DNA of 64,000 bases. Source: Rhizopus arrhizus (lineage: Eukaryota > Mucoromycota > Mucoromycetes > Mucorales > Rhizopodaceae). How positions within the stretch are numbered: the stretch's first letter is position 1; every line of letters starts with the position of its first letter. The notes under the pieces are model-generated. The model worked only from the letters and a program-made list of their open reading frames with translations, was not told where the DNA came from and searched no databases. Position numbers and translations under genes: made by a program. The DNA is taken from the NCBI GenBank assembly GCA_024220505.1, contig JAKZZE010000030.1, positions 591,501 to 655,500 of the forward strand. The letters are read 5' to 3'. Below are positions 264-62,970 of this stretch, piece after piece.

Positions 264-705
264 TGTAATTTTGTTTGGGTTTATTGGGTTAAGGTTTAAA
301 TAAGCAGAGATTTGAGTTATAATTGATATAAGAGTTGACTTTTTGTGAATTGGATTTGGCTTGATTCGCTTGATATAGTGACCACCAGATCTTGTAAAGT
401 AGATCAATCTTGTTTTGATTCGTAAAAAGGTTTGTTTAAAGTAAAAATAAAATAAAAAGGGATACAATGAAGATAGTTAGCTTCAAGGGACTTGACTTTG
501 TAATTATAATAGAATATCAAAAGAGCTTTTTAAAAGGATAATTGATAAATTTATTCAAAGAAAAACAAAGTAAATAAAGTTGTAGATTTTGTAAGTAAAA
601 GTTTTAAAGTGCAAAGATCGAAGTGAAGTTTTTATATCCTGAGGAATAAATCCTCAGTATTTATACTGTTTGGTGAGTTATTGTTTGGTCAGATTTGATT
701 GGCAA
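264..705 (-). repeat. LTR D (5' LTR of left-edge gypsy element), inner segment
   Basis: Starts TGTAATTTTG directly after the PBS. The LTR is interrupted at 705 by solo LTR C and continues at 1327-1359, 16176-16220 and 16637-16640 after removing LTR C, element A and LTR B with their target duplications, giving about 524 bp. It contains the LTR-internal PBS-like motif at 376-387. Its outer end (…TTACA at 16640) lies 18 nt past the 3' end of tRNA-Gln. The partner LTR and target duplication are outside the window. Confidence 0.7.
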
Positions 706-1322
706 TGTAATTTTTGTATTGCTTCAATGGCTTGTAAGAGTTAACGGTTTTGAAATAGAGTAAAGTTGATGAAAATGGATAAAAAGTAAGAGTTGGGTAG
801 AGTATTGATATTAGGTTCGCTTGTAAGTGACCACCAGATCTTGTTAAGTTGATCAGACTTGTTTTATATTCGGATAACTTGATAAGAGTATTAAAAGGAT
901 TTACAATGAAGATAATTGGCTTCAAGGGACTTGTCTTGCTTGTATTTTAAGAGTGTTATATCAAAAGATTCAGAGATAAGGATACTTGGTTTATTGATAA
1001 AATATATTTATATTGTCAAAAAAGGCAAGTTCAGGTAAGTAAAGATAAGTAAAGTCAAAAGAATAAAAAGCTGGGCTTTTTATAGGCAAAAATATAAAAT
1101 TCAATTTTTACAAAATGTAAAAATATCAAAAGGTAAAAAAATATCAAAAGGTTAAAAAATATCAAAAAGTTAAAAAAATATCAAAAGGTTAAAAAAATAT
1201 CAAAAGGTTAAAAATTTGTCAAATAGGAAAAATAATGACAATTTGTAAAGTGATTTACAAAACGTCAAAAATTAAAGCTTGAAAGAAGTTTCGGAGTTCA
1301 AATCTTCATAATCATAGCTACA
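706..1322 (-). repeat. Solo LTR C
   Basis: 617-bp segment beginning TGTAATTTTTG and ending AGCTACA, flanked by the 4-bp duplication GCAA (702-705 and 1323-1326). Its inner half closely resembles the LTR at 62336-62970 in reverse complement, so it belongs to that family. No internal coding region remains, which is the usual product of LTR-LTR recombination. It contains A-rich short repeats (variants of ATATCAAAAGGTTAAAAA) at about 1130-1215. Confidence 0.85.
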
Positions 1323-1359
1323 GCAATATTAACTTTTGGATCGTTTGAAAAGATCGTAC
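1323..1359 (-). repeat. LTR D, middle segment
   Basis: Short piece of LTR D left between solo LTR C (its GCAA duplication at 1323-1326) and element A (its GTAC duplication at 1356-1359). It continues on the other side of element A at 16172. Confidence 0.65.
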
Positions 1360-1846
1360 TGTTATTTTATTATTTGGTTGGCTTGTAGGTTTGTGTTTTA
1401 ATAGAGTAAGTTTGCTTGTGAAGCTTGATTGTAAGGTTAAGATAGCCTTGTAAGTTGTTGTTTTATATAGAATTTAAGCAGATGCTTGTTAAGTAGTGAC
1501 CACCAGATCTTATTTGTAAGATCAATACGATGTTTCTTGATAAAATAATATAAAAAGTAAAGTAAAAAGTTGTAGTGAACAGGGACTTTCTTGTTAAAGT
1601 TTGTTAATTATTGAGTAAAAATATATGATTTATTTAAACTGACTGACAATTTCTTCACAAAAAGATGGGATATATATATGAATAATAATTTTTTTTTTCT
1701 TTTTAGCTTTTCTTATTTTTTTAGCATTTCTTATTTTTGCGACTATTATTATTTCTTTGACAATGGTTGTTAAAATAACTTATATTATTTTAACAATCCA
1801 TGTCGGAGTTGGTTTGCGTTTCATCCAAAAAGCGATCATTCTCACA
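1360..1846 (-). repeat. 3' LTR of element A
   Basis: 487 bp, starts TGTTATTTTATT and ends ATTCTCACA on the plus strand. It matches the interrupted 5' LTR base for base over the first ~315 bp. The PBS-like motif is at 1493-1505, next to a perfect 7-bp stem (GATCTTA/TAAGATC) at 1506-1523. The last 19 codons of the third ORF read into this LTR. Confidence 0.92.
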
Positions 1847-2485
1847 GATTCCCGGGCCACGAGATGAATCGTCCTCGGTTCTTGTCCATTTATCCACTTG
1901 TTTCATCCTGTTGGTGAATGCTCGAAATAAACTATATCCGGGTATTATAGCCTTCAGTAAGATCTGTTTTGCTGCCATGTACGTAGCTATTGAATCTGGC
2001 TGTGCAGTTGGCCGTCTGAATTTAAAGTGAGCCCAATGAGTAGTATTTCGTGAGAGCAATTCACATAATTCATCCCTTTGGTCTTGTAGTCTTGCTATTT
2101 CTCTTATAGTTGTTGTATATTGATTGTATTGGTCTCTGATGAGCTCTTCAATGTTATTCAACAATTCTTCATCATCCTCTTTCTCCCAGCTATCTTCTTG
2201 GAATTCGTCTTGAATTTTGACTCCGAGTTTGGCTTGTATATTTTCAATAGTATAAATAGCGTAATCTTCTCTTGTTCTTTTTATTCCAGCAACTTCGTAA
2301 GTACAGTTTTCAGGTCCAATGTTGCACTTTTCCCACATTTCTAGGAAATCTAGCGTGGCTGCTAGAGTAACTTCAAGTCCTTGTTCTTGGTAAAGTTTTG
2401 TCAAGTAGGCTTCCATGTCCATAGTAAAACCTTCTTCATTGGTAGCAGACTGGCCATATTGAAATTGTTCACTCGTAGTATTCAT
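1790..2485 (-). CDS. Third ORF of element A, 231 aa, unknown function
   Basis: An intact ORF lies 98 bp downstream of integrase, in the position where errantiviral gypsy elements carry env. I see no signal peptide and no convincing membrane anchor; a weak hydrophobic stretch (LLKAIIPGYSLF) lies near residue 175. The protein is acidic in its centre (EKEDDEELLNNIEELI around residue 105), probably coiled-coil there, with a charged Asp-rich C-terminus ending SDMDC. The C-terminal 19 codons and stop lie inside the 3' LTR, so the coding sequence overlaps the LTR edge. It resembles nothing I recognise. It may be an accessory or chromatin-tethering protein, but that is a guess. No frameshift or stop disrupts it, unlike most nearby genes. 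Confidence 0.7.
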   Translation of the reverse strand: MNTTSEQFQYGQSATNEEGFTMDMEAYLTKLYQEQGLEVTLAATLDFLEMWEKCNIGPENCTYEVAGIKRTREDYAIYTIENIQAKLGVKIQDEFQEDSWEKEDDEELLNNIEELIRDQYNQYTTTIREIARLQDQRDELCELLSRNTTHWAHFKFRRPTAQPDSIATYMAAKQILLKAIIPGYSLFRAFTNRMKQVDKWTRTEDDSSRGPGICENDRFLDETQTNSDMDC

Positions 2486-2583
2486 TTTTTTGTATTGTTT
2501 TCTTTTTTTTTTGTATTTTCCTTGCTCTTATATATATAATTTTTTTTTTTTTTTGTTATTGAGTTGAAGGTCATCGGTACTCT

Positions 2584-3930
2584 TCATTGAAGTAGTTCAT
2601 TTGTTTGTTCATCCAAATTGGTCATGATGCTTCTTTTGTTTTCTTGGCACCATTGGACTTTAGGTAATAGATAAGGTTTCATCCTATTTCCATGTATTCT
2701 TCTAAGCTTTGTGTCATGAGGATCCATGCTTTTGATATGATATGTTCCTTTTCCAAGTATATGCTGTATGACATATGGTCCTTCCCACTTATCTTGTAAC
2801 TTTGCTGACCATGATGTTGACAAATAATCTCGGTAAATGAGAACTATATCTCCTAATTTGAACGGTGGTTTCAGTTCCTTGCGTTCATCTAGTATCTTCT
2901 TTTCAATCTGCTTTTTCTGCGTTTCTTGAGCTCGTTGTATGTTTTTCACGGCCATTTCTCTTATTCTGTTAAGATTGTATATTTGGTGAATTGTCCGGTG
3001 TCGTAGGATGGCGTCAAATTTGGGTGAATTCCGTTCATACACATGATGATCTATATCGAATGGTGTCTTCGGTTCATACCCATATAGTAAGAAAAATGGT
3101 GTATTCTTTGTTGATCCTTGTTTAATGGTTCGATAAGCAAATAGTGCAGCTGGTAAGTACAAATCCCAATCGTCCTTTTCTTCTTTTGTACGCTTTTGTA
3201 GGATTTGTCCTAAAGTTCTGTTGAAACGTTCAATCAATCCATTGCTTTGAGGATTGTATGGTGTAGTGGTCTTGTGAATAATCGAGAAATTCTTGCATAC
3301 TTGTTGTATCAGCTTGCTAACAAATGGTTTGCCATTATCCGAAACTATAATTGTGGGACAACCATGTCTACATATGATTTCTTCGTATAAGAATAAAGCG
3401 ATTTCTGATGCCGTTTGGAAACGAATGGGCCTTGCTTCTACATATTTAGTAAGGTAGTCGATTCCTGCTATGATATATCTGTTTCCGGATCGTGAAGCTT
3501 GTACATGTTTTACGTCTAAGGCGATGCGATCGAAAGGTTTTGCTGATACTGGCACAGGGTATAATTCTTCTTTTAGCGACTTTTTCCCATGTCTCTGACA
3601 TCTGTGACATTTCTTTACATATTCCATTATGTCCTTGGTCATATTTTCCCAATAATAACGTGATGCGACTTTGTGCAGTGTATTGTTATATGCCAAATGT
3701 CCACCAAGAGGGTGTTGATGATATGAATACATGATTTCTTCAGCTTCTTGCTTGTTCAGCACTTTTCTTATTATTCCGTTTTCGGTGTTGTATCTATACA
3801 GATTATCCTTGTATATGGTAAACTTATGTGCTTGCTTCTGTAAGTATCTTTTCTGTTTGTGCGTGATATCTTCTGGTAGTTTCAACTCTTGCAGATATTG
3901 TTTCACGATGTCAATTTGCTGTTGTTCCAT
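2584..3930 (-). CDS. Integrase of element A (separate ORF)
   Basis: 448 aa. An N-terminal zinc-binding HHCC module is visible (HPLGGH then CHRC at about residues 73-110). The catalytic core shows the DDE set: DRIALDVKH, IVSDNGKPF and NGLIERFNRT, with the typical gypsy order. A C-terminal GPY/F-like segment (DKWEGPYVI) follows near residue 385. It joins element cDNA to chromosomal DNA in the nucleus. Start ATG at 3930 gives MEQQQIDIVKQYLQ, comparable to the likely start of the element E integrase. It is unusual that integrase is not fused to RT-RNaseH: a 310-bp non-coding gap separates the two ORFs. No internal stops. Confidence 0.93.
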   Translation of the reverse strand: MEQQQIDIVKQYLQELKLPEDITHKQKRYLQKQAHKFTIYKDNLYRYNTENGIIRKVLNKQEAEEIMYSYHQHPLGGHLAYNNTLHKVASRYYWENMTKDIMEYVKKCHRCQRHGKKSLKEELYPVPVSAKPFDRIALDVKHVQASRSGNRYIIAGIDYLTKYVEARPIRFQTASEIALFLYEEIICRHGCPTIIVSDNGKPFVSKLIQQVCKNFSIIHKTTTPYNPQSNGLIERFNRTLGQILQKRTKEEKDDWDLYLPAALFAYRTIKQGSTKNTPFFLLYGYEPKTPFDIDHHVYERNSPKFDAILRHRTIHQIYNLNRIREMAVKNIQRAQETQKKQIEKKILDERKELKPPFKLGDIVLIYRDYLSTSWSAKLQDKWEGPYVIQHILGKGTYHIKSMDPHDTKLRRIHGNRMKPYLLPKVQWCQENKRSIMTNLDEQTNELLQ

Positions 3931-4240
3931 TTTTGGTAATATGAAGTTCTTGATATGTTATTGTTTCAGGGTCTTGATTTTTATGTGTGATATTTCCAAT
4001 TTTAGTGCTGTTAAAGTTTTTTCTTCTCACGACTGTTTGTTTTCTACGCCGGCCTTCCTCTTATGATTTTTGAAATTTTCTATTGTTTTTGATGATTTTG
4101 TATATTTTGTTTCAACTTCCCCTCCCATCCTCCTTGTAGTTGATAATATGATTTTTCTTTTTTTTATGTGTATTTTGTGTTGTTTTTGGATTTTTCTAGA
4201 GTTTATGTATCATCTACCCTCCCATCCTCCATGTAGTTGA
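3931..4240 (-). promoter_or_regulatory. Gap between RNaseH and integrase ORFs with paired G-tracts
   Basis: Non-coding 310 bp within pol of element A. On the minus strand two near-identical G-rich tracts occur: GGAGGATGGGAGGG at 4230-4217, 10 nt after the RNaseH stop, and GGAGGATGGGAGGGG at 4133-4119. Both are preceded by ATCAACTACA(A/T)-type sequence, so this is a duplicated ~27-nt block. Four G-runs allow a two-tetrad quadruplex. Element E carries analogous tracts in its own gap. A role in expression of integrase (splicing, reinitiation, internal promoter) is speculative. Confidence 0.5.
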
Positions 4241-5080
4241 TTAATATCCAAGTCTTGACAGGAAATCTGCACTTTCGTTGACACGTCCAGGTCTATATTT
4301 AATTTCAAAGTCGTATTCTGATAATGTGACGATCCATCGGGCTATTATTCCTGTTGGGTTTGGTGTCTTGAGAAGTCCAGTTAAGGCTGAGTGATCTGTA
4401 ATGATCATGAATTTCTTTCCAAGTAAATATGGTCTAAAGAGTTTTACTGCCCAAATAACTGCTAAGCATTCTAATTTTGTGGGGGCATAATTGGCTTCGT
4501 TAGGTTTGAGTCCACGACTTGCATAGATAATTGGATGCTCTTTTCCGTCGTCATCAAGTTGAGTTAAGACACATCCTAGTCCTAGTTTAGAGGCGTCTGT
4601 GACCAAGATAAAACTTCGGTTAAAATCTGGTCTTGCTAATACAGGAGCAGTTGTTAACAGTTTCTTGAGTGTTTCAAATGAAGCAGTTGTTTCTAGTGTC
4701 CACGGAATTTTCTTTTTTGTTTTCGTTTGGTCATGTAACGGCCTTGCAATAGCTGCAAAATTCTTTATAAATCTTCGATAATATGATGCTATTCCTAGAA
4801 AAGATCTGACTTGCGTAATAGTGGTTGGTACTGGATATTCTACAATCTTCTTTATTTTGTCCGGATCGGTTTGTATGCCTTGGTTGGTAACGATGTATCC
4901 AAGAAATTTCAAATGATCTTTAAAGAAGAAACATTTCTCTGGATTCAATTTGAGATTGGCTGTTTCTATGCACTGAAATACTTGTTCTAGATGTATTAAA
5001 TGCTCTTCATCGTTATGGGAGTATACATTAAGGTCGTCTATATAGGCTACTAAGCACTTGTTCATTAGCGGGCGGAAACA
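4241..5080 (-). CDS. Pol of element A, 3' part (RT palm end and RNase H)
   Basis: Continues the pol frame after Tc1-1. The RT active-site box YIDD appears at once (AYIDDLNVYSH), then thumb/connection (FLGYIVTNQG; RSFLGIASYYRRFI) and RNase H with DASKLGLGCVL, the glutamate-bearing TKLECLAVIWA, and ITDHSALTGLL. It ends DFLSRLGY with TAA at 4241-4243. RT copies genomic RNA into DNA; RNase H removes the RNA strand. Removing Tc1-1 and one TA restores an uninterrupted frame with 6716-8962, reading RLIDL then CFRPLMNKC across the join. Confidence 0.92.
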   Translation of the reverse strand, partial: CFRPLMNKCLVAYIDDLNVYSHNDEEHLIHLEQVFQCIETANLKLNPEKCFFFKDHLKFLGYIVTNQGIQTDPDKIKKIVEYPVPTTITQVRSFLGIASYYRRFIKNFAAIARPLHDQTKTKKKIPWTLETTASFETLKKLLTTAPVLARPDFNRSFILVTDASKLGLGCVLTQLDDDGKEHPIIYASRGLKPNEANYAPTKLECLAVIWAVKLFRPYLLGKKFMIITDHSALTGLLKTPNPTGIIARWIVTLSEYDFEIKYRPGRVNESADFLSRLGY

Positions 5081-5082
5081 TA

Positions 5083-6713
5083 CAGTTGTTGGAATAATTG
5101 TTCGGGTGTTTTGCAATTTTATACGTTTTGCTTTCTATCTCTGCAGTCAGATAAGCTAGAGCTACTTACAATACCTCATTAGAAAGCGACAGTTGTCAAA
5201 TCTAACATATAAAAAGTTAAGGTTATGGGATTACTTCCATATATAGTAAGGTCAAATTGAGTCAAGCATGTGCATTCGAACAATTTTTCCAACTGAATCA
5301 TCTTTTATTTAATATCGTGCATAATCGCCTTTAGCCTTAATGACTGCTCTACAACGAGCTGGCATACTCTTGATATATGCTTGGCATTGCTCTCTGGTAA
5401 AAGAGTTCCATTCTTTCTCGATTCTAGACCAGAGATCATGCACTCCTTTAGCCCTACCTTCGCACAAACTCAGTCTCAACTTTAGATGGTGCCAGAGATG
5501 CTCTATAGGATTCAAATCAGGATTTTGAGTTGGCCAATGGAAGGTGTGCTCTTATTTAAACCCATTTTCTTTAAAATAAGCACGAGCAAGCTTTGATGTG
5601 TCCGTAGGATTGTTATTTTGCTGAAAATAGATAGCCTCCTACTTGTAGCCATAGTAGTTCAGGCTGTCCATCAGCGTGGTCGACAGGATATGAACATAAT
5701 CTGATGCTTTCATAGTACCGTCCTCAATCGTGCAGGCATATCCAGGACCATCCCACGTCATACAACCCCAAAGCATTACACTGCCAGCTCCTCCTTTGAC
5801 TGTAAGGTCAAGATGATGAGGTTGCAATTTATCACCAGGTCTTCTCCAAAAGTATCTACAACCATCTGAGCCCCAAACATTAATCTTGGTCTCATCAGAA
5901 AACACCATACGTCTCCAGTCATCTTCCGTCCAATCTTTGTAAACTTTAGCCTATTTTAGCCTAGCTTCCATGTGTGGTTTTTTGAGGAGAGGCTTTTTCT
6001 TCTTAATTTGGGTACTGAAACCCATGTTGTACCAAAATAGCCTATCTTATAGCCAATACTGTTTAAATATGACCATACGCTCTTTGCAGTCTGAAGTGAG
6101 CCATTTATAAGCTCTCTCTTCAGGTAATTCTTTGTTGTTGAGCTCATAGTAATCTTTCTACCAGCATGACCTCGAGTACGTTTAGGTGCATACAAGCTCT
6201 TGTACTTGCTCAAAGTGGACCTTGATACTCCTGAAACACGTTTCATGATTTCTGAGTATGATAAACCCTTTTTCAACAACGACCGGATGCTTTCTTGCTT
6301 GCTACGAGATAAAGGGTGTACCATGATATAAAGAAGTATAGGCTGTACGAGGTAGAAGGGAAACACTGCAAAATCCAGCCTTATTTATGTATTTTAAGCT
6401 CTGACTAAAAGCAAAAGCGCTATTTCATTATTACGTCATTTTGTAATGCTGTATTTGTGACGTCAGAAACGTCAATGATATCATCATTATAGAATGCATT
6501 GAGTTCGAAAAATTGTTCGAATGCGTATGCTTAACGCAATTTGACCTTACTATATATGGAAGCAATCACCTAACCTTAACTTTTTATATGTTAGATGTGA
6601 CAGCTGTCGCTTTCTAATGAGGTATTGTAAGTAGCTCTATCCTATCTGACTGCAGAGATACAAAGCAAAACGTATAAAATTGCAAAACATCCGAACAATT
6701 ATTCCAACAACTG
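5083..6713 (-). mobile_element. Tc1/mariner element Tc1-1 (family I)
   Basis: 1631 bp bounded by terminal inverted repeats CAGTTGTTGGAATAATTG…, with TA duplicated at 5081-5082 and 6714-6715. It interrupts the RT of element A just before the catalytic YIDD box. Each end has a second, inverted copy of part of the repeat about 200 bp inwards (ATTCGAACAATTTTTCC near 5290; GAAAAATTGTTCGAATGC near 6510). The transposase inside is dead (see 5309-6324). Confidence 0.92.
5309..6324 (-). pseudogene. Tc1-1 transposase, broken
   Basis: Minus-strand remnants in order: N-terminal helix-turn-helix (MVHPLSRSKQESIRSLLKKG… with SRSTLSKY), then a frameshift near 6040, the first catalytic Asp (VFSDETKINVWGSDG) at about 5890, the second region near 5590, and PDLNPIEHLWHHLK with the catalytic Glu near 5500. 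Several stops and at least one frameshift break the ~340-codon frame. A DDE transposase would cut and paste the element at TA sites. It ends KAKGDYARY, like the other family members. Confidence 0.88.
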
Positions 6714-6715
6714 TA

Positions 6716-8962
6716 AATCTATTAAACGCTGAAAGGTTGCTGGAGAATTTACAAGTCCCATAGGCAAGGTATTATAGTGGTATGTTCCATATTTGGTAGT
6801 GAAAGCAGTGAATTCCTTGCTATCCTCGTCTAGTGGTACTTGATGAAAACCAGAGCGCATGTCGAGTGCTGAAAATACTTTGGCTTTTCCTAGGGTGTCC
6901 AATAAATCGTCTATTCTTGGTAAAGGATATGCATCTTTCTTCGTCTTTGCATTTAATTTTCTGTAGTCTATGACCATTCTGTAATCACCATTCTTCTTCT
7001 TTACTAATATCACTGGTGCTGCCCACGGGCTATTCGATGGTGATATAACTCCTAGTTTACAATATTTGTCCAATTCTTTTTGAAGGTGTTCTGCTTCCAA
7101 GGGACTGATTCTGTACGGGCGGTGACTAATAGGTAATATATTTTCTTCTATGATGATCTTGTGATTGATTAGGTTTGTGCGTCCAATTGTATCGTTGTCC
7201 CAGTCGAATATATGCTGGTATTTTTTCAGTAACTTAAGCAGTTCTTCTTTCATTGATTTATTTATATCTCCTATTTCCAGTTTTTCCAATAGCTGTGGTT
7301 TTAGCGTATCTTGGTCTTCCTTGTTTAGATTTTGTTCAATAATATCGTGTTCTAAAGTGCATAATGTCGAGTTTCTGTCTACTTCATATGCGTTGATTAT
7401 TGTATCGTCATTTAGATCATGAGCTTCCAATATTCCAATTTCTTCACCAGGTTCTAGATAAATATCATTTTCTGTGCGATTGTATATGCGTATGTCGAGT
7501 GACTTTTTGTTGATTATGAATGAAGATGACTGATCAAAATATCCTGAAGACTGCATTAACTTTGGATGTGTAATGTAAAAGTCATATAGTATGTTCTGAG
7601 TGTCTTCTTTGGATTTGTCTAAGCTGATATGTTTCGATGAATACGCTTGTACTAAAAGTCCTGTGTCTGTTGACTTTATCGAATACATTTCTTGTAAATT
7701 TGTAATAACTACTTCCTCGTATTTGTCATTTTCCAAAACTTGCAATGATTCTTGTTCATAACTTCTTTCTAAGGCTGTTACTTCCATTTCTATATCATCG
7801 TCACTGGTTTCTTCGCTTTCTGATTCAGATTCCTCTTCGGTTGATGAGTAACTTCCTTCTGAATCGCTATCTTCAAAATGTACATGCTTATCGGAATGTG
7901 AGTTTGTGAGACTTATAGGATGTTGATAGTCTTGATGGAATGTTTTCATTTTGGGTAACGGTGTACTTTTTCGTATGAAGTGTATTGGTAGTTCTGCCTT
8001 TTGGTTTTTATATTTGACTTTTAATGAAGAGCTATTGAAATCAATCTTGGCTTTAGCACGGTTTAACCAATTGCTTCCTAGTATAAGATGTGAAGGGCAT
8101 GATGGCAATACTTCAATTGTGCAGGGTATGACCATGTCTTCCTTGACTTCAATTGGGACGTCGTATATCAATCCGAGAGCGGGTTGCTTGGTTCCATTTC
8201 CTAGTGTGAATACGTTTTCGGATGCTGAATCTATTTCTAATTCAAGAACGTCTGCTAGGGCCTTTGACATACAGGTTTTTGATGCACCACTATCTACTAG
8301 GGCTTTAATGTTTTTGTCTCCAATACTCACAGTTGAGTAGGCTGCAGTGGTATTGATTTCCTCGTCTTCTATCAGAGCCATTGTTTGTTGAATAGCCTGT
8401 TTATTTCTTTCTTGTCTCGGTTTTCTTTTTGGTCTACATTCTTCCACAAGCTTTTTGCGTAAAGATGGGGCTACTGTGATCAAATCTCCAATTTCGATAT
8501 CGGCTTTTTGTTTTAATACATCTGAGACTATATCATATTTGATATCTGGCTCTATTCTTCTGGTTCTTGGTTTATTTGATTTATCATTAACCTTGTGTTG
8601 AATAGGGAGATCCGTATCCATGGCCTCAGTTCGAGTGGGTTGCGTTTGTTGTACTGGTGTGGGATTTTTCACTTCTTCGATATGGCTTCGTGTAGTGACT
8701 TTTCTGGTTATGGTAGGTTTTGCTACTTGCTTTCCTTTTTCTTTATTTGTAGGTCTAGAGCTTGGATAAGGTGTAGCTGTGGCAACGTCAGGAGGTCTTT
8801 CTGGTCTGATTGCTGCATAGAGATCCTTTTGTTTGTTACTGTATTTATCCGTTAATATTGCGTTGAGCTGTTGTTGTTTAGGGGTTTTAATGGGTTTTAT
8901 ATCTTTTTGGGTGTTTAGTTGACCATTCTTCTGTGAGTTATCAAAAGCAACTGACCCTAATA
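6716..8962 (-). CDS. Pol of element A, 5' part (protease and RT), expressed by -1 frameshift
   Basis: This frame is open from the A AAA AAC heptamer at 8963-8969; no ATG is needed if read by -1 frameshifting. A basic/Gln-rich linker is followed by an aspartic protease (LVDSGASKTCMSKAL, near 8290) and a long acidic Ser/Glu-rich spacer (7780-7870). RT then shows HRPYRISPLEAEHLQ, PWAAPVILVKKKNG, YRMVIDYRKLNA, FSALDMRSGFHQV and LVNSPATFQRLID. The frame meets Tc1-1 at 6714 and resumes at 5080. No internal stop. The protease matures the Gag-Pol precursor inside the particle. Confidence 0.92.
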
Positions 8963-9627
8963 GTTTTTTGACTGATTATTTTGTTGATTGTTATGTTGAT
9001 TACTGGGTTGGTTATTCGGTTGCCGTTGATCCTGACTTGCTGGTTGGTCATATGATCTCCTTTGATTTGGCGTATAATTTCTGTTACTGTTATCGTATCG
9101 TCCATTGTTGTCGTTATTTCCATATCTTCCAGACCTATTATAATTATTGTTATAATTATTATACCTGTTGTTTCTAGTAGGTTGCTGTTGATATTGTTGA
9201 CTACTAAGCTCTTGGCGAATTGTTTGTTGTATAAGACCAATAAGATCTTGCTGTTGGTTAGGACGTATGTGTTGTTGTCCATTGTATTGAACATGATGCA
9301 ACTGATTACGGTTTCTTGATGTATTCATTGTTGTCAATTGATTTGTACCATGTGTATTGTTGTAATAGTAATTACTACTAGGTTGAGCATTGTTATAATG
9401 TATTTGATTATACGCTAGTGCTGGCATGGCATGTTCATTTGTATCAACTAAGTCAATATTATGATTACTTGATAGATGATGATGGTTATGATTTTCATTA
9501 TGATATATCAAAGCTTGATTGGCGTTCCTTGGTATGAAGGGATTATCAACCATTGCAATCTTTCGAGGTCGATTGGCGTTCCACCATCCTTCGGCGTGAT
9601 CAATCCAGTCTTGCATATTTTTTGAAC
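8957..9627 (-). CDS. Gag of element A, C-terminal part
   Basis: Continues Gag after Tc1-2: removing Tc1-2 and one TA joins FCIQS to SSKNMQDWIDHAEGWWNANR in frame, matching the intact Gag at the right edge. The rest is extremely Asn/Gln/Tyr/His-rich with an RGRYGNND-like basic stretch, and no CCHC zinc knuckle. The Asn/Arg-rich tail may bind RNA instead (inference). It ends QSKNY with TAG at 8957-8959, directly at the frameshift heptamer. Confidence 0.9.
8963..8969 (-). promoter_or_regulatory. Candidate -1 ribosomal frameshift heptamer A AAA AAC
   Basis: In the gag frame the codons read TCA AAA AAC TAT TAG. The heptamer A-AAA-AAC ends 3 nt before the gag stop (8957-8959). A -1 slip there enters the pol frame (CTA TTA GGG TCA GTT…), open through protease and RT. 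This fits the X XXY YYZ consensus exactly. A possible downstream stem is AGTTG pairing with CAACT about 27 nt later. Placement, phase and consensus all agree; function is inferred. Confidence 0.75.
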
Positions 9628-9629
9628 TA

Positions 9630-11255
9630 CAGTGGGTGAAAAAACTCTAAAAACGTTATGATATTATTAGCGTTTTTGGTTGTTCTGTTTTACCAAATTA
9701 GTGTATCACCGTGAAATTTTGCACATATGTAGCACTGATAGCAGCATATCGTATGCTGCCTTTTCAATCTCCGATGATAAATATTGATCCGAAATCAACT
9801 GCTAAAAGAAGACTGGTTTATTTTTAGAGTTTTTTCACTTCCATAAAGGTCGGATACACGGACCGACAGACCGGTTTTGCGGACTTTCATTGACATATTA
9901 TGAGTCATAAAGACTCCAAAAGTATAAAAAAAGTCACTTTTCTCTTTTTCTTAAAATTTTTCCATTTAATTTTTTAAATTTCCTAAACACTTCAATCATG
10001 CCTAAATCTCTCTCAGCTGACATTAAAAACGATATAAAGTCCGCTCTACTTGCCGGAAAAGTCTCTATGGATGTTGCAAACCGCTTTGGGGCTACGTATG
10101 CAACAGTTAAGAACTATGCGAACAAGTTTTTCCCTAACCGACAGCGTGGACTTGGTGGTAGACCGATAGTTGTGTCCACTCAGACGAAGAGATTCATCAA
10201 ACTTCAGGTTGTACAAGGCCAACTCAAGACTGCGAGGAAAGTACATGACAAACTCATGGAGCTGGGGTATTCCATAACATACAAAACCGCTATAAACGTA
10301 TTAAAATCGATGAACTTCTTTGCTGCGATTAAGGTCAAAAAGCCTTTGTTAACTGCAAACCACATGAAGAGACGGCTAGCATGGGCCAAAAAGTACTAAA
10401 ACTGGACTACAGATGACTGGCGACGTGTAGTGTTCTCTGATGAAACAAAAGTCAACATTTGGGGCTCTGATGGATGTAACTACTATTGGTCAAGACCAGG
10501 GGACCTTCTTAAGCCTCACCATATCGACGTAACACTTAAGCATGGAGGCGGTAGTTTAATGATGTGGGGGCGCATGACCTATGAGGGACCTGGGTACGCC
10601 TGTCAAATATACGATGGAACTATGAATTCGGATCTTTACCAACATATATTGGACACAACACTTCGGGAAACAATGGAATACTATGATATGGATTGGTCTA
10701 CAGTATATTATCAGCACAATGGTGATCCAAAGCATCGTTCCAAGTCAACCATTCAATGGCTAAATGCTAATAGAGTGAACTATATTGATGACTGACCAGT
10801 TCAAATTTCTGATATTAACCCAATTGAGTATCTTTGGCATCATTTGAAGCTGAAGCTATTGTTATATGACAAGAAAGCCAAAGGTGTTCATGAATCGTGG
10901 GAAAGAGTTGAAAAGGAATGGAACTCCTTTGAGAAAGAAGTTTGCAGAAGGTATATTGACACTATGCCTGCACGTATTAAGGCAGTAATCGATGCCAATG
11001 GTGGATCTACGAAGTATTAAGTCATCTATAACATAATAAAAATAAAAGGAAAAAACTCTAAAAATAAACCTACAGCACTTACATCGATTTTGCGGACTTT
11101 TAAATAATATTCTGAGATTGAAACTTTCATGAGATGTAACAGAAAGTCAAACAAGCATGTCATAAAGTTGTTGCATCATCTAAGTCACTATACATGCTCA
11201 GAGAGGCTAAAAACAGAAAAAATGTCTGACGTTTTTAGAGTTTTTTCACCCACTG
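9630..11255 (+). mobile_element. Tc1/mariner element Tc1-2 (family II)
   Basis: 1626 bp, termini CAGTGGGTGAAAAAACTC… in inverted orientation at both ends, TA duplicated at 9628-9629 and 11256-11257. It splits gag of element A. Inner inverted copies of the terminus lie at about 9820-9839 and 11050-11070, so each ~210-bp end can fold back. Tc1-11 (38523-40135) is a close relative. Confidence 0.93.
9998..11020 (+). pseudogene. Tc1-2 transposase with two nonsense codons
   Basis: A 341-codon frame in register with that of Tc1-11. The N-terminus MPKSLSADIKNDIKSALL carries a helix-turn-helix; the DDE core includes VFSDETKVNIWGSDG, then NGDPKHRSK (the usual DNDPKH is altered to NGDPKH) and INPIEYLWHHLK. 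A TAA at 10397 replaces a probable CAA (Gln), and a TGA at about 10793 replaces TGG (Trp). Otherwise the frame is complete to GGSTKY at 11020, so inactivation is recent. Confidence 0.92.
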
Positions 11256-11257
11256 TA

Positions 11258-11739
11258 CTTTGTATACAAAATTGTTTTATCTCTCTAAGGAGACCTGCGC
11301 GGAAACGACTTTCGATGACTGATTCTTGAGTAATGTTGGCAAGATCTGCGACTTCTCTTAATCTGGCCAGGAATATCTGTGGGTGTTCTTGTTCACCTTG
11401 ATAGATTTCATTAAATTCTAATTCGTAATTCATTATCAATTCTGGAGTAATGTAATGGTTCTTTAGAAGTTCTGTTGCATTGTCATATTTGATATCAGAG
11501 ATTCGTCTGAGTATCTCTTTTTCGTAATAGACTTTAGCTGCTCCTCGCAATTGTGCTTTGAGGATCGTGAGTTTACGTGCGTCCAGGGCGATGTTATTAA
11601 GTGCAAAGTAAGATTCCAAAATTTCCAAAAAGTGGCGAAAGTCTTCTCCTTCATAGCCATGGAAATCAATTAAAGTAGGTCGATAACTTGCATTCATGTT
11701 AGCGTTAGCCAACGCGATGTGTCCATTTATATAAGCCAT
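11258..11739 (-). CDS. Gag of element A, N-terminal part
   Basis: Start ATG at 11739 (MAYINGHIALANANMNASYR). It contains the capsid-like core RPTLIDFHGYEGEDFRHFLE, …ILKAQLRGAAKVYYEKEIL…, and EHPQIFLARLREVADLANIT, the retrotransposon Gag fold seen in the other two copies. It stops being native at the Tc1-2 insertion after residue ~160; the rest lies at 8957-9627. About 116 nt separate the start from the PBS. Confidence 0.92.
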
Positions 11740-11855
11740 TTTAGTTTCAGGTAAATTTGATAAATTTGTTTTTGTTTAAGGTTGTTTCTTGATTTAATTT
11801 CTTGATTTGATGTTTTATTTCCCTCGTTTGATTTTTTTTGTTTTTTTTTTTGGAT

Positions 11856-11873
11856 CCCTCGTAGTGACCACCA
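11856..11873 (-). other. Primer-binding site of element A
   Basis: Minus strand TGGTGGTCACTACGAGGG, two bases inside the 5' LTR (11876). Identical to the PBS of element D and of the right-edge element. It is where tRNA-primed minus-strand synthesis would start. Confidence 0.82.
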
Positions 11874-11875
11874 AA

Positions 11876-12190
11876 TGTTATTTTATTATTTGGTTGGCTT
11901 GTAGGTTTGTGTTTTAATAGAGTAAGTTTGCTTGTGAAGCTTGATTGTAAGGTTAAGATAGCCTTGTAAGTTGTTGTTTTATATAGAATTTAAGCAGATG
12001 CTTGTTAAGTAGTGACCACCAGATCTTATTTGTAAGATCAATACGATGTTTCTTGATAAAATAATATAAAAAGTAAAGTAAAAAGTTGTAGTGAACAGGG
12101 ACTTTCTTGTTAAAGTTTGTTAATTATTGAGTAAAAATATATGATTTATTTAAACTGACTGACAATTTCTTCACAAAAAGATGGGATATA
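11876..12190 (-). repeat. 5' LTR of element A, first part
   Basis: Matches 1360-1674 without a difference I can see. Interrupted at 12189-12190 (TA) by Tc1-3, then by solo LTR F; it resumes at 16001 and ends at 16171. The PBS-like motif is at 12009-12021. Confidence 0.92.
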
Positions 12191-13829
12191 CAGTAGCTGA
12201 AAAAATACGAGCAACCTTTTGGCAAAATCGACTTTTTTCGCTATATCAAAAGGTGCATGCCAACTACCGGCATGGGACTCCTATGGTATATTTTCGGGGT
12301 CATGTGTCTTGAAACAGTAAAGGTCTCATGTAGCAATACTGGAAATTGAGAGAGGAATGAGAATCCGAATTTAAAAATTTGACTTCCGACCAGCTTAAAT
12401 TATGTACGGTAATCATACGTTTACATTTAAATCAATAAAGAACATATCGGAAGACTATACAGCGTACTTGTATAGGACTGTGAGCTTTCCTCATTGTGTC
12501 CATATAAAAGCAAGTGCAACTTCAAGAGTCCTTGGTTTCTTTTTTTTTTGCTCAATTTCTCTCACTGCTTCTCATCATCATGCCTAAATCTATACCAATG
12601 GAAAAGCAATCCAGAAATAAAAGATATATCACTGAATAGCATGAAGCTAGAGGATATCGCAGATAAATATTACGTTCATTCTCCCACAGTTAAAAGGTAT
12701 ACTAGGAAGCTTTTTCCATGAAATTCACACCTGTCTGCTGGAAGACATGCTATTGTCTCTTCTGCCATGAAGCACTATATCGAGCTGTGTATTATTACTG
12801 GTCATCGAACAATAGCGAAAGAGCTATTTAGGGAGTTGGGTAAGTTTGGTTACTTGTTGATGTACCGTTCAGGAGTAAACGCGCTGAGATCCATAAACTG
12901 CCACCGAGAGCTAAAAAAAAAGAAGGCATTTTTAAAAAAGGATCATTGAAAAAAGCAGATGACCTGAGCAAAAAGGCATCGCAACTGGTCAAGTTCATAG
13001 TTACGACCAGTAGCGTTCTCAGCTGAAGCAAAGATTAGCATCTAGTGATCAGATGGAGTAAAATAGTATAGAGTAGTATAAAATGACATTTTGCTCCCTC
13101 ATCACATCGACATTACAGTAAAGCACTGCAGCGGTAGGATGAACATGTGTTGTCACATACCTACTCAGGGACCAGCATAGACATGTCAGCTTTATGACCA
13201 TAACATAAACTCAACGACTTGTCTGCATATACTTAGCAATATTTACATGAATACGTTAGAGTACCATTATTTGAAGACATCTGATGTATACCTTCAGAGT
13301 GATAGCGGCGTAAAGTATAACTTAAAAATCATAACTGTATAGGTACGCGGTATCAGTGTAAGGTATATAAATTATTGGTATGCTCAAAGTCTGGATTTAA
13401 ATCATATAAAGCATGTTTGGCATCAGCTCAAACTTAATCTGACACCACATGAAGTCGGAGAAAGAGGTGTCAGAAAGCTTCAGCCATTTGTGGATGTAGA
13501 GCGAAATAAACTCAATGCAAATGCTTGCAAGAGGTACATCAATAGTATGCCAGCCAAAGTAGAAGCACTTATTAAAGCAAAGGGAAGATATAGAAAATAT
13601 AAAATAAACATAGCGAATTTTGAAAAATCATCATTGGCTTTTTTATGACTGTCTTTCCCTTTTTAAAAAGCTTGTACTTCAAGTAGAGTCAATCTCTTTA
13701 GTGTATTGTATGTATCTTTGTCGTCTTAATTAGTTTGTGTGATATCAAAGCTCTGGCGAATGTACACACGAAAAAAAAAAGATATGAAGACAAATCGAAC
13801 AGAGGTTGCTCGTATTTTTTCACCTACTG
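12191..13829 (+). mobile_element. Tc1/mariner element Tc1-3 (family III), decayed
   Basis: 1639 bp with terminal repeats CAGTAGCTGAAAAAATACG…/…CGTATTTTTTCACCTACTG and TA at 12189-12190 and 13830-13831. A transposase start is recognisable at 12580 (MPKSIPMEKQS), with decayed remains to about 13600 (NHIKHVWHQLKLNL around the former NPIEH motif; KGRYRKYK at the end). Many stops and frameshifts. It sits at the junction between LTR A and solo LTR F. A related 5' fragment is at 30568. Confidence 0.9.
12580..13603 (+). pseudogene. Tc1-3 transposase, heavily degraded
   Basis: Recognisable only by short matches to relatives: the start MPKSIPM, a DNA-binding piece (DKYYVHSPTVKRYTRKLFP, 12666-12721), a segment around 12770-12950 (KHYIELCI…KELFRELGKFGYLL) and the C-terminal KHVWHQLKL…KGRYRK. 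The first catalytic Asp region is not preserved. Boundaries are approximate. Confidence 0.7.
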
Positions 13830-13834
13830 TATAT

Positions 13835-15996
13835 TGTAGCACAAATGATGAAGTTTTGGATCCGGAGAACAATGATGATCACAAGAACCAATTTTGATGT
13901 CCAGCGACATTGATGTCGTTCGACATAGATAGCAAACAACATAAACAATAAGTCATGCCTTTTTTTATATACAGTAGCGGACAAAACTGGTGCACAAAAA
14001 TTAAAATCAACATTGTATCTCCGCCATATGTCTGCGACTTTTGTGGCATATACCATCTGAAAGACAGTCTAAGATATACATTATGTTATGTAAACCGGAA
14101 CTGTGCCGGACATCCCCCAGGCATAAGGTCATTTTTAGTGATTTTTTTGCATATTTCAATTTTCGCCAAAAATGTAGTGCTTGTCTAGCCTTCTTTCAAT
14201 TTTCCCCATATCTCTCCCGTTTGCTTTCAGATTTCACCGCATATTAGTAAATTTTAGTAGCTCATAAAAAATATATAAAACTGTACTTATTTTGTATTTC
14301 CCATTGAGTCCCCCCTTTTGTTTTTACCCTATTCACTATAACAAAGTACTAGCCTTATATGTTTAAGAAAATAAGCAACTGTAAAAACGAAACTCTGAGA
14401 TCTCGAATACACTTAGTTCGTACGACAACAGATATTTCTAGAATAACAAGAATCTCTAAATGGACAATCAACAGGAGAAAGAGGGAAGAAAGAAACTTAA
14501 TGTCTTGTGATCATGAAGGTCTCCCGCTTTTAGTCTGAAAAGTTACTAGTTCAGTCATCAACCTAAAGCTTGGACAAGGTCCGTTACACACAGTTTCTGA
14601 TGCTCAGCACATTTCGAGGACCTTAAGATACAGTATTAGCAGACTGTTAGTCTGAAGGCACTGTAGGAAGCTAGATTTTGAGTCCGGAAGTAAGGAATCG
14701 AAGAATTTCATCAGCTGTATAAGTCGGAAAAAGCGATGAATGTGGTATCACAACAAGCCATTGTATACTATAGAGGGCTGAAAGTCTGCTATCTTTAGCA
14801 ATGAAACAAATATGAACATTATGGATGCAGATAGTATACACTAATATTGAAAGCAAGTCGAGCAACCTTAGCGATTTTTTCACGGTGATCAAACAATGAA
14901 GCATGCTGGCTGCTCTGTTATGTTTTAAGGCTGTATTAGATATTGAGGACCGGAATATGTGTGTCAAGTATATGATGGTATAATGAACTCATAAATATAC
15001 ACATGTATTTCGCTTACTTCATACCACAAAAGCCTAGCGTATAGTGGTCTAAAACGTCGTAATCTCTCGTTTCAGTATGACAATGACACAAGGCACAAGT
15101 CAACGCATACCACAAACTCAATATTTGATAACAGCGCTTCTGTGCTACAAGTTTAGCCGCCACTAATCCCGGCCTAAGTCCGCTTAAGCATGCCAGGTGG
15201 CAATTGATGGCAAAGGTATGATGATACGACACTAGATCAAAAAGGGTCGATGATCTTTGGAAAAGAATAGTTAAAGAGCCGGGTTCTTTTACTGAAAATG
15301 ATATACACGCATATTATTAGCATATGCAAAGAAGAATATCCGATAATATCAAGAGATGAGATGATTATATAAAGTCTAAGATTTTAGCCACTTTTGCGGT
15401 TTTTAGAAAATATAAGATTTTATAAATTCAAAGCACGCTTATCGCTCAGTTTTAACAATGTCATGCTTAGAACATACATAGATTACAATGACTAGTATAT
15501 CCTCCTTCTAGTACAGTTTCATGACTATTGCAATTACCATGAGCAGGTAATGGTAGTTAAAAGCTAAAAAAAAGTTTTGTGCACCAGTTTTGTCCGCTAC
15601 TGTAAATAAGATGAATATTTTTAACCAAAACAAAATCAGAATTCAATTCAATAAACAAAATCTTCTTGCGCTTAAAAGCAATTGTTTCTTATTGGGTCAC
15701 AAACACCTTTTCTTTTCTTTTTCTTTTTACTTATTCTTTCTGATCTGATACCTGAATTATCACGAATCAAGAAAGATCCCTTTTATTTTTATCTTTTATT
15801 AAACAATCTTACTCCTAACCTTATTGATCTATAAAGATCTGGTGGTCACTACTTAAAACCAAATTACTATATCAAAAGAACTGTTAAACGTTCAATCAAG
15901 TTAATCAAACTCAAGTCATTCAAGGCTTCAAACTTCAAATTAAACAAATCTACAACACTTTAACACAATCCAAATCCCAAGTACTAACAAGTTACA
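13835..15996 (+). repeat. Solo LTR F (plus orientation) interrupted by Tc1-4
   Basis: Begins TGTAGCACAAATG and ends AACAAGTTACA, followed by ATAT (15997-16000); ATAT also precedes it once Tc1-3 is removed. Without Tc1-4 it is about 530 bp. It carries the group motif GATCTATAAAGATC then TGGTGGTCACTAC at 15840-15852, in the same orientation as the right-edge element. It inserted into the 5' LTR of element A. Confidence 0.8.
13972..15602 (+). mobile_element. Tc1/mariner element Tc1-4 (family IV), decayed
   Basis: 1631 bp with termini CAGTAGCGGACAAAACTGG… and TA at 13970-13971 and 15603-15604. Only traces of the transposase survive on the plus strand: SNETNMNIMDAD near 14800 (from SDETxxNIWGSD) and KHAGCSVMF near 14898. 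Tc1-13 (50112-51741) is a nearly full-length sister in opposite orientation and equally dead; Tc1-10 is a truncated one. A non-autonomous family mobilised in trans is likely. Confidence 0.88.
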
Positions 15997-16000
15997 ATAT

Positions 16001-16171
16001 ATGAATAATAATTTTTTTTTTTTCTTTTTAGCTTTTCTTATTTTTTTAGCATTTCTTATTTTTGCGACTATTATTATTTCTTTGACAATGGTTGTTAAAA
16101 TAACTTATATTATTTTAACAATCCATGTCGGAGTTGGTTTGCGTTTCATCCAAAAAGCGATCATTCTCACA
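16001..16171 (-). repeat. 5' LTR of element A, second part
   Basis: Continues the LTR after the nested insertions and ends ATTCTCACA at 16171, followed by target duplication GTAC (16172-16175). Same sequence as 1676-1846 apart from poly-T length. Confidence 0.92.
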
Positions 16172-16220
16172 GTACCAAAAGATCGTTCCTTTTGTTCGTT
16201 CAAAAAGTTGGTTCTTGTGT
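16172..16220 (-). repeat. LTR D, outer segment
   Basis: Resumes LTR D after element A and ends at the GTGT duplication (16217-16220) of solo LTR B. The last four bases of LTR D lie beyond LTR B at 16637-16640. Confidence 0.6.
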
Positions 16221-16632
16221 TGTTATTTTTCTTGGAGTAGTAAAGGTTGTTATTAATAAAGAGAGTTTTCTTGAGTTTTTACAAGTTTAGTTGCTTGATG
16301 TGACCACCAGATCTTTTAAGTAAGATCAAATATAAGATAAAAGATAAAGATAAAAATAAAGGGAACAGGGACTTTTATAACTAAAGATTGCCTGTTTGTG
16401 TAAATGAAAAGATAAAAAGAATTGAACTTGAGTTATTTATTGAAAAAACTGAATTGAATTGACTTCAACAAGAGAAGGTATTTATATTGTTTCTTTGTTT
16501 GTGCTTTTGACCTTTTTCACAAAAATGAAAGTTTTCATTTGACCGACAATTTTCGATCTAGCGACTAAAGTCGCTATTTTGAAAATTTTCGGCTTGATCG
16601 GGTGTTACATTGTTACTTTCTTCTTGGTTACA
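16221..16632 (-). repeat. Solo LTR B
   Basis: 412 bp, TGTTATTTTTC…CTTGGTTACA, flanked by GTGT (16217-16220, 16633-16636). It contains the PBS-like motif GTGACCACCA at 16300-16309 beside GATCTTTTAAGTAAGATC. It lies about 26 nt past the 3' end of tRNA-Gln in the same orientation as the tRNA. Confidence 0.8.
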
Positions 16633-16640
16633 GTGTTACA

Positions 16641-16645
16641 ACAAA
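16641..16645 (-). terminator. Oligo-T Pol III terminator of tRNA-Gln
   Basis: Minus strand TTTTT, 14-18 nt past the tRNA 3' end. The inferred outer end of LTR D begins at 16640, immediately next to it. Confidence 0.75.
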
Positions 16646-16658
16646 AAGGAGAGTCAGA

Positions 16659-16730
16659 AGGTCCCACCGAGAATCGAACTCGGATCACCGGATTCAAAGA
16701 CCGATATGATAACCATTACACTATAGGACC
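16659..16730 (-). tRNA. tRNA-Gln (UUG)
   Basis: 72 nt on the minus strand. The acceptor GGTCCTA pairs with TGGGACC, an A-box-like TAGTGTAATGG and a GTTCGATTC B box are present, and the anticodon loop CTTTGAA gives TTG, which decodes CAA. The discriminator base is T, as in yeast tRNA-Gln. A 31-39 T-T mismatch at the top of the anticodon stem is the only blemish. No intron. It is the anchor for the stacked retrotransposons to its 3' side. Confidence 0.93.
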
Positions 16731-19844: not shown

Positions 19845-20289
19845 TATATGGTCGTTGTTAAATAGAAGGTTGAATGATTATGAAACAACACCAAAAGGCA
19901 TGAATGAACTATACGAACGAGTAACTAAATTTTGGTACGACTTAATGAAGCCGGAAGAGTGCCAAAAGGTCATAGAAACAATGCCTAAGCATATAAAACA
20001 ATGTATCAAGAATAAAGGACGCTGGACTGACTATTAATGTCAAATAAATAAACCATTTTGCTTTTTTTCAAAAGTGCCGCAAAACTGTCCCAATGCACCG
20101 CTTGTTTTCTATCCCCTCTGTCTCCGTCTGCGCTGTTTTAATTTGGTTTTGCTTTACAGTTGTTGGTACTACAAGATTGTGACTATCGAATGATATACAA
20201 TAAGGTGTACATTAGCTTAACAACTATGGAGCCACAAGCCCTAGAAGAGAAAATTACGAAACATTGGGACAGTTTTGCGGGTCACTGTA

Positions 20290-20882: not shown

Positions 20883-20988
20883 GCAGCATTCATCTATAAT
20901 AATTATTAGCCATCATGTATATAATAAAAGTAATAGTACCTTTCTTTACATAGACAAGGGGAAGAAAACTTGCTGAGCTTTTACCAAT

Positions 20989-21032
<44 letters not shown>

Positions 21033-62239: not shown

Positions 62240-62313
62240 GCTCTTATGGCGCAATTGGCTAGCGCGTCTGACTGTTAATCAGGAGGTTGGTGGTTCGAGC
62301 CCACCTAGGAGCG
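62240..62313 (+). tRNA. tRNA-Asn (GUU)
   Basis: 74 nt with acceptor GCTCTTA/TAGGAGC, an A-box TGGCGCAATTGG, anticodon loop CTGTTAA (GTT, decodes AAC/AAT), a GGTTCGAGCCC B box and discriminator G, as is usual for tRNA-Asn. No intron. Element E lies on its 5' side and another gypsy LTR on its 3' side. Confidence 0.96.
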
Positions 62314-62335: not shown

Positions 62336-62970
62336 TGTATGTCGCCATACATTTGTTTTACATTGTAATGGAAGAACCAATTTTTTGAACAATCTTCTGG
62401 TACTGTAACGAAGATTACAACATAAACACCAGCAATGGCTGCGGTTTGTGATTTTTAATTTTTAACCTTATTCTTTTTTTGAACTTTATTTCAAAATCAA
62501 ACTTTATATCGAAATCAAACCTTATATTGAAATCAAACCTTATATCGAAATCAAACCTTATATCAAAATGAAACTTTATTTTTCTTTGTCTATAAAATAG
62601 ACAAGTTTTTATTTTTATTTTACTTCACTTCTCTTGACATATATATTTTAACTTTACTTATCTTAAATATATTTTATCCAATAAATCAAGTATCTTTATC
62701 CCTGAATCTTTTGGTATAATACTCTTAAAATACAAGCAAGACAAGTCCCTTGAAGTCAATTATCTTCATTGTAAACATTCTTAAAACTCTTATCAAGTTA
62801 CCTTATTACAAGCAAGTTTGATCTACTTAACAAGATCTGGTGGTCACTTACAAACGAATTTAATACCAATACTTTACCCAACTCTTATTTTTTTTATTCA
62901 CTTTCGTCAACTTTACTCTATTTCAAAACCGTTAACTCTTACAAGCCATTGAAGCAACAAAAAAATTACA
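62336..62970 (+). repeat. 5' LTR (C') of the right-edge gypsy element
   Basis: The end (…AAAAAATTACA at 62970) is fixed by the PBS. The start at TGTATGTCGCC is the first TG after the tRNA terminator and gives 635 bp, close to the 617 bp of solo LTR C, of which it is a diverged relative. PBS-like motif AAGATCTGGTGGTCACT at 62833-62849. The region 62500-62580 carries five short repeats of ATCAAACCTTATATCGAA type. Confidence 0.75.

Follow-up and report, generated by a model that had tools for sequence, protein, structure and literature searches.

Co-directional insertion of Ty3/gypsy LTR elements downstream of Pol III genes in Rhizopus arrhizus

Results

Nested LTRs on the 3' side of tRNA-Gln

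The window, the whole 64,000-nucleotide stretch of Rhizopus arrhizus DNA analysed here, contains a minus-strand tRNA-Gln gene whose 3' side is occupied by LTR sequences nested within one another. The 16-mer listed below is an LTR motif given with the original prediction for this DNA; TSD stands for target-site duplication.

16659..16730, minus: tRNA-Gln(ttg), the anchor gene (ARAGORN; Rfam RF00005, 61.7 bits)
16641..16658, minus: 18-nt spacer between tRNA-Gln and the first LTR, with a TTTTT run as candidate Pol III terminator (from the sequence)
16633..16640, minus: LTR D, first 8 nt, retained when LTR B inserted
16221..16632, minus: LTR B, solo, 412 nt, 26 nt past tRNA-Gln; TSD ACAC (16217-16220); 16-mer at 16300-16315
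16172..16216, minus: LTR D, continuation to the insertion point of element A
1360..16171, minus: element A, Ty3/gypsy, 71 nt past tRNA-Gln with B discounted; TSD GTAC
13835..15996, plus: LTR E, reversed, nested in the 5' LTR of A about 245 nt out; TSD ATAT; 16-mer at 15834, plus strand
1323..1355, minus: LTR D, stretch separating element A from LTR C
705..1322, minus: LTR C, 104 nt past tRNA-Gln; TSD TTGC; 16-mer at 827-842
264..700, minus: LTR D, final part, which ends ahead of D's primer-binding site; 16-mer at 378-393

LTR D starts at 16640, 18 nt past tRNA-Gln, resumes past LTR B and B's copy of ACAC, and finally runs off the window. When B is taken out, the joined D flank matches fetched sequence, and the same stretch is uninterrupted at survey locus L062. 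Exact 4-bp TSDs flank B, A and C, the TSD of D being out of reach because D leaves the window. All four LTRs (D, B, A and C) run in the same direction as tRNA-Gln, and the 16-mer is absent from the 5' side of the gene within 1.5 kb. The boundaries, the TSDs and the 16-mer scan confirm the original prediction of four Gypsy insertions past tRNA-Gln in the tRNA's orientation, with none on its 5' side. Its entry distances of 18 and 26 nt also stand, but those of 75 and 100 nt were measured as 71 and 104 nt. The uniform direction that it described holds for the four LTRs it listed but not for a fifth, LTR E, which is reversed and is itself split by an inverted-repeat insertion (about 13970-15605) that is Tc1-like by eye. 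A tRNA-Arg reported by ARAGORN at 22968-23055 was rejected, as it is AT-rich, lies within a palindromic repeat and has no Rfam match at the gathering threshold.

The same arrangement, downstream and in the same orientation, was predicted for a second tRNA gene near the right edge of the window, and it is present there:

62240..62313, plus: tRNA-Asn(gtt), the second anchor gene (ARAGORN; Rfam)
62404..62970, plus: LTR of the right-edge element, intact, 90 nt past tRNA-Asn, followed by a primer-binding site

The predicted entry at 22 nt past tRNA-Asn found no support; the intact LTR starts at 90 nt. A piece starting TGTAATGG, 50 nt past the tRNA, resembles the head of LTR D by eye and looks like an older LTR head; no exact copy of this piece, or of the one at 22 nt, was present in the other fetched loci. 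A further, different Ty3/gypsy element occupies about 55621-62040 on the minus strand (Pfam), with its LTR ending ~200 bp upstream of tRNA-Asn, and by eye its LTR sequence is also found downstream of tRNA-Lys in L036.

Element A and its proteins

Element A has the TG...CA LTRs, primer-binding site and short TSDs of a Ty3/gypsy (Metaviridae) element. Its 5' LTR begins at 16171 and ends at 11876, and its 3' LTR spans 1846-1360; the two are identical over 480 aligned positions, so the element is probably young. It is interrupted by LTR E and by insertions that were named Tc1-like by eye, and Pfam places its domains on the minus strand in the order protease, reverse transcriptase, RNase H, integrase, in separate open pieces:

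11856..11873, minus: primer-binding site, of which the first 16/18 nt are the complement of the 3' end of tRNA-Val(UAC) plus CCA
6699..8672, minus: protease and first part of the reverse transcriptase, open frame as it stands (Pfam)
4241..5116, minus: remainder of the reverse transcriptase, followed by RNase H; frame open in its present state (Pfam)
2584..3930, minus: integrase, 448 aa, with H2C2 and rve domains and an SH3-like C-terminal domain in the model (Pfam, PDB, model)
1790..2485, minus: third open frame, 231 aa, matching no Pfam family

Among solved chains, the best sequence match to the integrase is the Ty3 integrase 7q5b (E 2e-26, residues 41-421), which comes from a TFIIIB-bound complex; a fold comparison of its model puts foamy virus integrase at the top, with Ty3 in eighth place. 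In the model (pLDDT 80), the core is joined to the C-terminal SH3-like domain by an extended helix of 50 residues, and the 29 residues past this domain are poorly modelled and contain no chromodomain; Pfam likewise found no chromodomain in the integrase at E <= 0.001. The integrase shares 98% identity with a protein assigned to Rhizopus delemar, and its further named relatives, among 120 listed of 285 matches, are Mucorales fungi, including R. arrhizus, R. microsporus, Circinella and Absidia. These relatives very probably place the host in the delemar/arrhizus group of Rhizopus. The seven relatives found for the 231-aa third protein are all named Rhizopus; it is helical in a weak model (pLDDT 62, pTM 0.31) that is too weak for structure search.

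The 16-mer overlaps a copy, inside the LTR, of the start of the primer-binding site (TGGTGGTCAC; many LTRs extend to TGGTGGTCACTAC). This copy is kept across otherwise divergent LTRs and may bind the tRNA-Val primer.

LTRs follow every surveyed tRNA gene

We surveyed the genome (50.26 Mb, 41 contigs) starting from 63 tRNA genes, which were those scored by the Rfam tRNA search among 2878 first-look candidates and represent 9 amino acids. The genes were chosen without regard to LTRs, and all 63 flanks were read, with 700-1500 nt taken downstream (700 nt for L061 and L062) and the 16-mer scored at up to one mismatch. As the 16-mer has 1118 exact copies genome-wide, 1.9 copies would be expected in the 84 kb of downstream sequence. 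It was found downstream on the same strand at 56/63 loci, downstream on the opposite strand at 3/63 and upstream at 0/63, the upstream scan covering 70.6 kb. The downstream enrichment is not chance (1.9 expected hits against 56/63 loci), and the direction bias has a p of about 1e-13. The nearest same-strand 16-mer lies 344-1110 nt past the tRNA, within 400-620 nt at 48 of the 56 loci. The 7 loci that have no same-strand 16-mer all have LTR heads downstream, and the LTR family is thus found downstream at 63/63 loci, 56 by the 16-mer and 7 by LTR starts.

Such a pattern could also arise if a few ancestral units of gene plus LTR had been copied by segmental or whole-genome duplication, so that the loci were not independent. 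Near-duplicate downstream flanks do exist (L050/L059, L065/L066 and L072/L074/L077), and a whole-genome duplication is reported for R. oryzae in passages of PMC2699053. However, these are just three near-duplicate sets among the 63 loci, judged over the first 200 nt downstream, and when the extra copies are dropped the 16-mer is still found downstream on the same strand at 52 of 59 loci, with 3 reversed and 0 upstream. In addition, isotypes, head types and distances vary between loci and TSDs vary between stacks, and we consider duplication a very improbable source of the pattern.

Insertion points were read from 16 recurrent LTR starts (TGT...), or heads, each defined by conserved sequence after the boundary and diverse sequence before it. 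At 61 deduplicated loci (L066 and L077 were left out of the head counts and kept in the 63-locus motif counts) we found, within 680 nt downstream, 109 distinct same-way starts and 2 reversed, with 0 upstream on either strand; the 109 derive from 120 head matches, as some starts matched two head types. With near-duplicates dropped (59 loci), the numbers are 106 same-way, 2 reversed and 0 upstream. The reversed starts are in L052 at +324 and in L055 at +225. Same-way starts are present at 60/61 loci, and the remaining locus, L035, carries the 16-mer. The first same-way start is at +21, 94/109 fall at +21 to +193 and the fullest 20-nt bin is +80-100. The sharp same-strand peak past tRNA genes foreseen in the original prediction is therefore present, although the zone is wider than the +15 to +110 that had been proposed. 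Because the head 14-mers were taken from downstream flanks, the absence of heads upstream is weaker evidence than that of the 16-mer, and because a reversed copy would expose its head only one LTR length out, the direction rests mainly on the 16-mer.

We found 4-bp TSDs at 19/33 testable loci, defined as those whose first LTR avoids running into an internal region, compared to 2.9 expected and a maximum of 9 in 500 shuffles. A 5-bp TSD performed no better than chance (6/103 versus 5.8), leaving 4 bp as the right length. Joined flanks matched fetched sequence in 12/20 cases, in some of them no further than the end of the LTR. At 54/58 loci the first T4 run comes before the first LTR head. Head positions were also examined for a 10-bp rhythm, and the result was not convincing (largest Rayleigh z 2.75 among ten periods).

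In the stacks that were read, older LTR heads were often the site of newer insertions, and over 95 starts the 4-bp target shows a weak bias, with T in 74% at -3 and a purine in 92% at -2. Both observations would fit elements that home to DNA sequence, whether older copies or a short motif, in which case their proximity to tRNA genes would be a by-product of nesting. However, the first insertion at a gene entered unrelated flank, the 16 head types follow differing preceding sequence, and a bias of 2-3 bases cannot select Pol III genes or set a distance. We give sequence homing hardly any credence.

A genome-wide search for a B box with an LTR-like start 70-100 nt on gave 24 same-strand hits, with one locus counted twice, compared to 1 reversed, and the B box of the single reversed hit also has a same-way hit. 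Nine of the 24 same-strand hits are at tRNA genes of the set, and backward-read controls of the pattern gave 0 hits. A reversed 16-mer 180-210 nt after a B box likewise gave 0 hits, a count given no weight here. Starting instead from the LTRs, we found that the first 30 16-mer hits on contig 1 form about ten clusters, of which six are directly downstream of Val, Gln, Asn, Trp, Leu or U6 genes and one (L019) is behind a snoRNA-like gene. Two more, between the Val and Gln genes, appear from their position to belong to those stacks, and at cluster L021 a Pol III gene was looked for and none was found.

Reversed LTR pieces occur at five loci, three recognised by the 16-mer (LTR E of the window, L054 and L084) and two by heads (L052 and L055). 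The clearest exception is L084, where a reversed element entered at +180 past tRNA-Phe, within the landing zone. The direction bias is strong, not absolute.

The arrangement extends to SRP RNA and intact U6 genes

Both SRP RNA genes (2/2) have the 16-mer downstream on the same strand, exact in L105 and with one mismatch in L106. Their LTR heads lie 27 nt and 34 nt past the 3' end, the 34-nt head (L106) having been called by eye. SRP RNA is ~297 nt long, which places these heads 324 and 331 nt from the gene start, against a tRNA range of 94-319; counted from the 3' end, they fit the tRNA range of 21-246. The distances at these two similar genes favour the 3' end over the start as anchor and suggest that the ruler is the gene's 3' end.

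There were 18 U6-like hits, of which 12 loci were read and sorted into intact and altered copies by eye, after LTR status was known. The 2/2 U6 genes with an intact 3' end and T-run (L093 and L097) have the 16-mer downstream on the same strand, compared to 0/10 of the altered copies, which are cut or changed at one end (Fisher p 0.015, with L094-L096 identical at the 3' junction). Altered copies L098 and L099 keep a run of T5 or longer near the end, yet have no LTR. The contrast between intact and altered U6 copies suggests that transcriptional competence matters.

As LTRs are placed likewise behind SRP RNA and intact U6 genes, the rule is wider than tRNA genes: downstream, orientation-biased targeting was borne out at the 63 tRNA loci, but not as the tRNA-only rule originally put forward. 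We do not extend it to all Pol III genes, since no LTR stack was found at RNase P RNA (0/2) or 5S (0/1) genes, even though each of these is followed by a run of T5 or longer within ~15 nt. RNase MRP RNA was searched for and not found. At L019, a C/D-box-like RNA (about 1045-1140) ends in a T8 run, and the LTR stack starts ~40 nt further on. This RNA matches SNORD18 below the family cut-off (E 0.06), and its sequence has one match in the genome by DNA search. The stand-alone snoRNA-like sequence is a candidate for an unannotated Pol III gene.

Other repeats occupy the upstream flanks

The upstream flanks are not intolerant of insertions, as other repeats are present there. A repeat with inverted ends CACTGCAAATAAT...ATTATTTGCAGTG (CACTG-ended) stops 51-60 bp upstream at 18/61 tRNA loci, with the same end facing the tRNA in 17/18. 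It is found at L035, L037, L042, L043, L048, L053, L058, L060, L061, L065, L075, L076, L079, L081, L086, L089 and L091, and also in the window:

43355-46053: window copy of the ATTATTTGCAGTG-ended repeat, with matching inverted ends and ATG on both sides

The ATG flanks suggest a 3-bp target duplication, and the copy next to tRNA-Gln (16786-22917) has no matching 3-bp flank. The repeat resembles a DNA transposon that follows an upstream tRNA rule of its own.

At 34/61 loci, a repeat ending within 12 nt upstream is shared with a tRNA gene of another anticodon. One group of repeats ends 0-10 nt upstream of differing tRNA types (L033, L038, L062, L064, L079, L080 and L085; mean 99.6% identical, alignments of 56-1226 nt), and a second group, also 0-10 nt from the tRNA, comprises L044, L047 and L087. 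In L033 and L038, an antisense stretch stays open for 499 codons; it looks coiled-coil and by eye is LINE ORF1-like, and the L044 repeat also carries an antisense, coiled-coil, LINE-ORF1-like frame; the frame upstream of L033 has no Pfam match. The L033 and L044 groups are reminiscent of the upstream non-LTR elements of Dictyostelium. In the L040, L041, L050, L052, L057 and L063 groups, short repeats ending in TCA stop ~4-12 nt before the tRNA, and some of these leave a AAAGAAAAGT-like remnant beside the tRNA, which gives the appearance of insertion into an older element.

These flanks bear on whether the LTR pattern might reflect selection, with near-random or loosely Pol III-directed insertion followed by purging of upstream or antisense copies near tRNA genes. 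Upstream or antisense promoters could harm tRNA output, and old short pieces and near-intact LTRs both obey the rule, as they would under continuous selection. However, the upstream flanks do hold other long repeats, both the CACTG-ended repeat and those shared between tRNA types; the copies are concentrated at Pol III genes, far above the motif hits expected by chance; and even short LTR heads show the same direction. We regard selection as an unlikely explanation.

Discussion

Starting from the observed side, direction, distance, TSDs and gene classes, we consider the best explanation, with a probability of about 0.8, to be that a Mucorales Ty3/gypsy lineage integrates just downstream of active Pol III genes by way of a polar tether that would lie on their 3' side. 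After integration, the 5' LTR would lie nearest the Pol III gene. Because the landing zone would be defined from the gene, new elements would often fall into older LTR starts, and such nested entry would leave short LTR heads beside the gene and push the remainder outward. We hypothesize that a component assembled on the gene's 3' side tethers the intasome. It could be terminating or recycling Pol III, the part of TFIIIC that covers the B box, or a nucleosome whose phasing they set. In the element, the tether could reside in the C-terminal domain of the integrase and the long helical linker that leads to it, or in the 231-aa third protein.

The two ends of an intasome are chemically alike, and since it is these ends that integrase joins, a direction of insertion is not expected. 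A polar tether would fix which LTR end meets the gene-proximal side. Our guess is that symmetry is broken when the polar tether meets one end first, perhaps via subterminal LTR sequence or the third protein.

It is possible, with the odds in our view slightly short of even, that Pol III genes in this genome are polar, two-sided landing pads, where Ty3/gypsy elements take the 3' side one way and other elements take the 5' side at fixed distances. The 5'-side occupants would be the CACTG-ended inverted-repeat element at 51-60 bp and the LINE-like antisense pieces at 0-10 bp. If this is true, LTR stacks would be a fossil record of Pol III transcription and could point to unannotated Pol III genes, such as that suspected at L019.

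In the available text of a 2018 review (PMC5911963), downstream insertion is limited to dictyostelids. Here, a fungal Ty3 lineage lands downstream, mostly one way, at every examined tRNA gene and at SRP RNA and U6 genes. Two questions become testable in this way: what gives a symmetric integrase complex its direction, and which component of the Pol III machinery distinguishes the 3' side. As both intact and altered U6 copies occur in this genome, it also provides a natural experiment on whether transcription must be active.

Comparison with known systems

Part of this picture is already known, namely the co-localisation of Rhizopus LTRs with tRNA genes and the downstream landing of dictyostelid Skipper-2. 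In R. oryzae 99-880, Ma 2009 (PMC2699053) found that Ty3-like LTRs make up 8% of the assembly and show a 'strong insertion-site preference, often co-localizing with tRNA genes'; these are probably the same kind of elements as those described here. The portions of that paper available to us do not give the side, distance, direction or non-tRNA targets. The word 'tRNA' does not occur in the accessible portion of 'LTR Retrotransposons in Fungi' (PMC3248453), and among the open-licence papers that our literature search listed, none described LTR elements of a fungus entering downstream in a single direction.

The following comparisons draw on excerpts of the papers cited. Ty3 of S. cerevisiae lands 1-4 bp upstream of the Pol III start (PMC8632968, PMC5911963, PMC5006619), and Ty3 and DGLT-A insert in either orientation (PMC5911963). 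Ty3 integrase contacts TFIIIB via an extended linker, C-terminal domain and vestigial chromodomain (PMC8632968). The elements described here resemble Ty3 in that they are Ty3/gypsy elements that target Pol III genes and have an integrase whose best sequence match among solved chains is that of Ty3. In contrast to the upstream insertion of Ty3 in both orientations, we find 0/63 upstream and 109 same-way versus 2 reversed starts, and whereas Ty3 has a vestigial chromodomain, none was found here.

TRE3 non-LTR elements of Dictyostelium insert 40-150 bp downstream of tRNA genes, in the tRNA's transcriptional orientation (PMC5911963), and are thus similarly downstream and co-directional. However, TRE3 is a non-LTR element with its own insertion chemistry, whereas the elements here have LTRs, an integrase gene and 4-bp TSDs.

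Skipper-2, a Ty3/gypsy chromovirus of dictyostelids, inserts 7-136 bp downstream of tRNA genes in four species (PMC5006619) and was called the first LTR element landing downstream of tRNA genes in the 2018 review (PMC5911963). Likened by description rather than by sequence comparison, the two share their Ty3/gypsy nature and a downstream zone, which is somewhat wider here. The integrase of Skipper-2 carries a diverged chromodomain, and the canonical primer-binding site has been lost from many Skipper elements (PMC5006619), whereas we found no chromodomain and a tRNA-Val primer site is present. The excerpts on Skipper-2 state no direction rule for it. Furthermore, SRP RNA and U6 genes are also targeted here, and every examined tRNA gene is occupied. 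The original prediction that the rule would differ from that of Ty3 and recall the downstream elements of Dictyostelium is upheld by the absence of upstream copies and the 109:2 direction ratio, with Skipper-2 and TRE3 as the systems it resembles.
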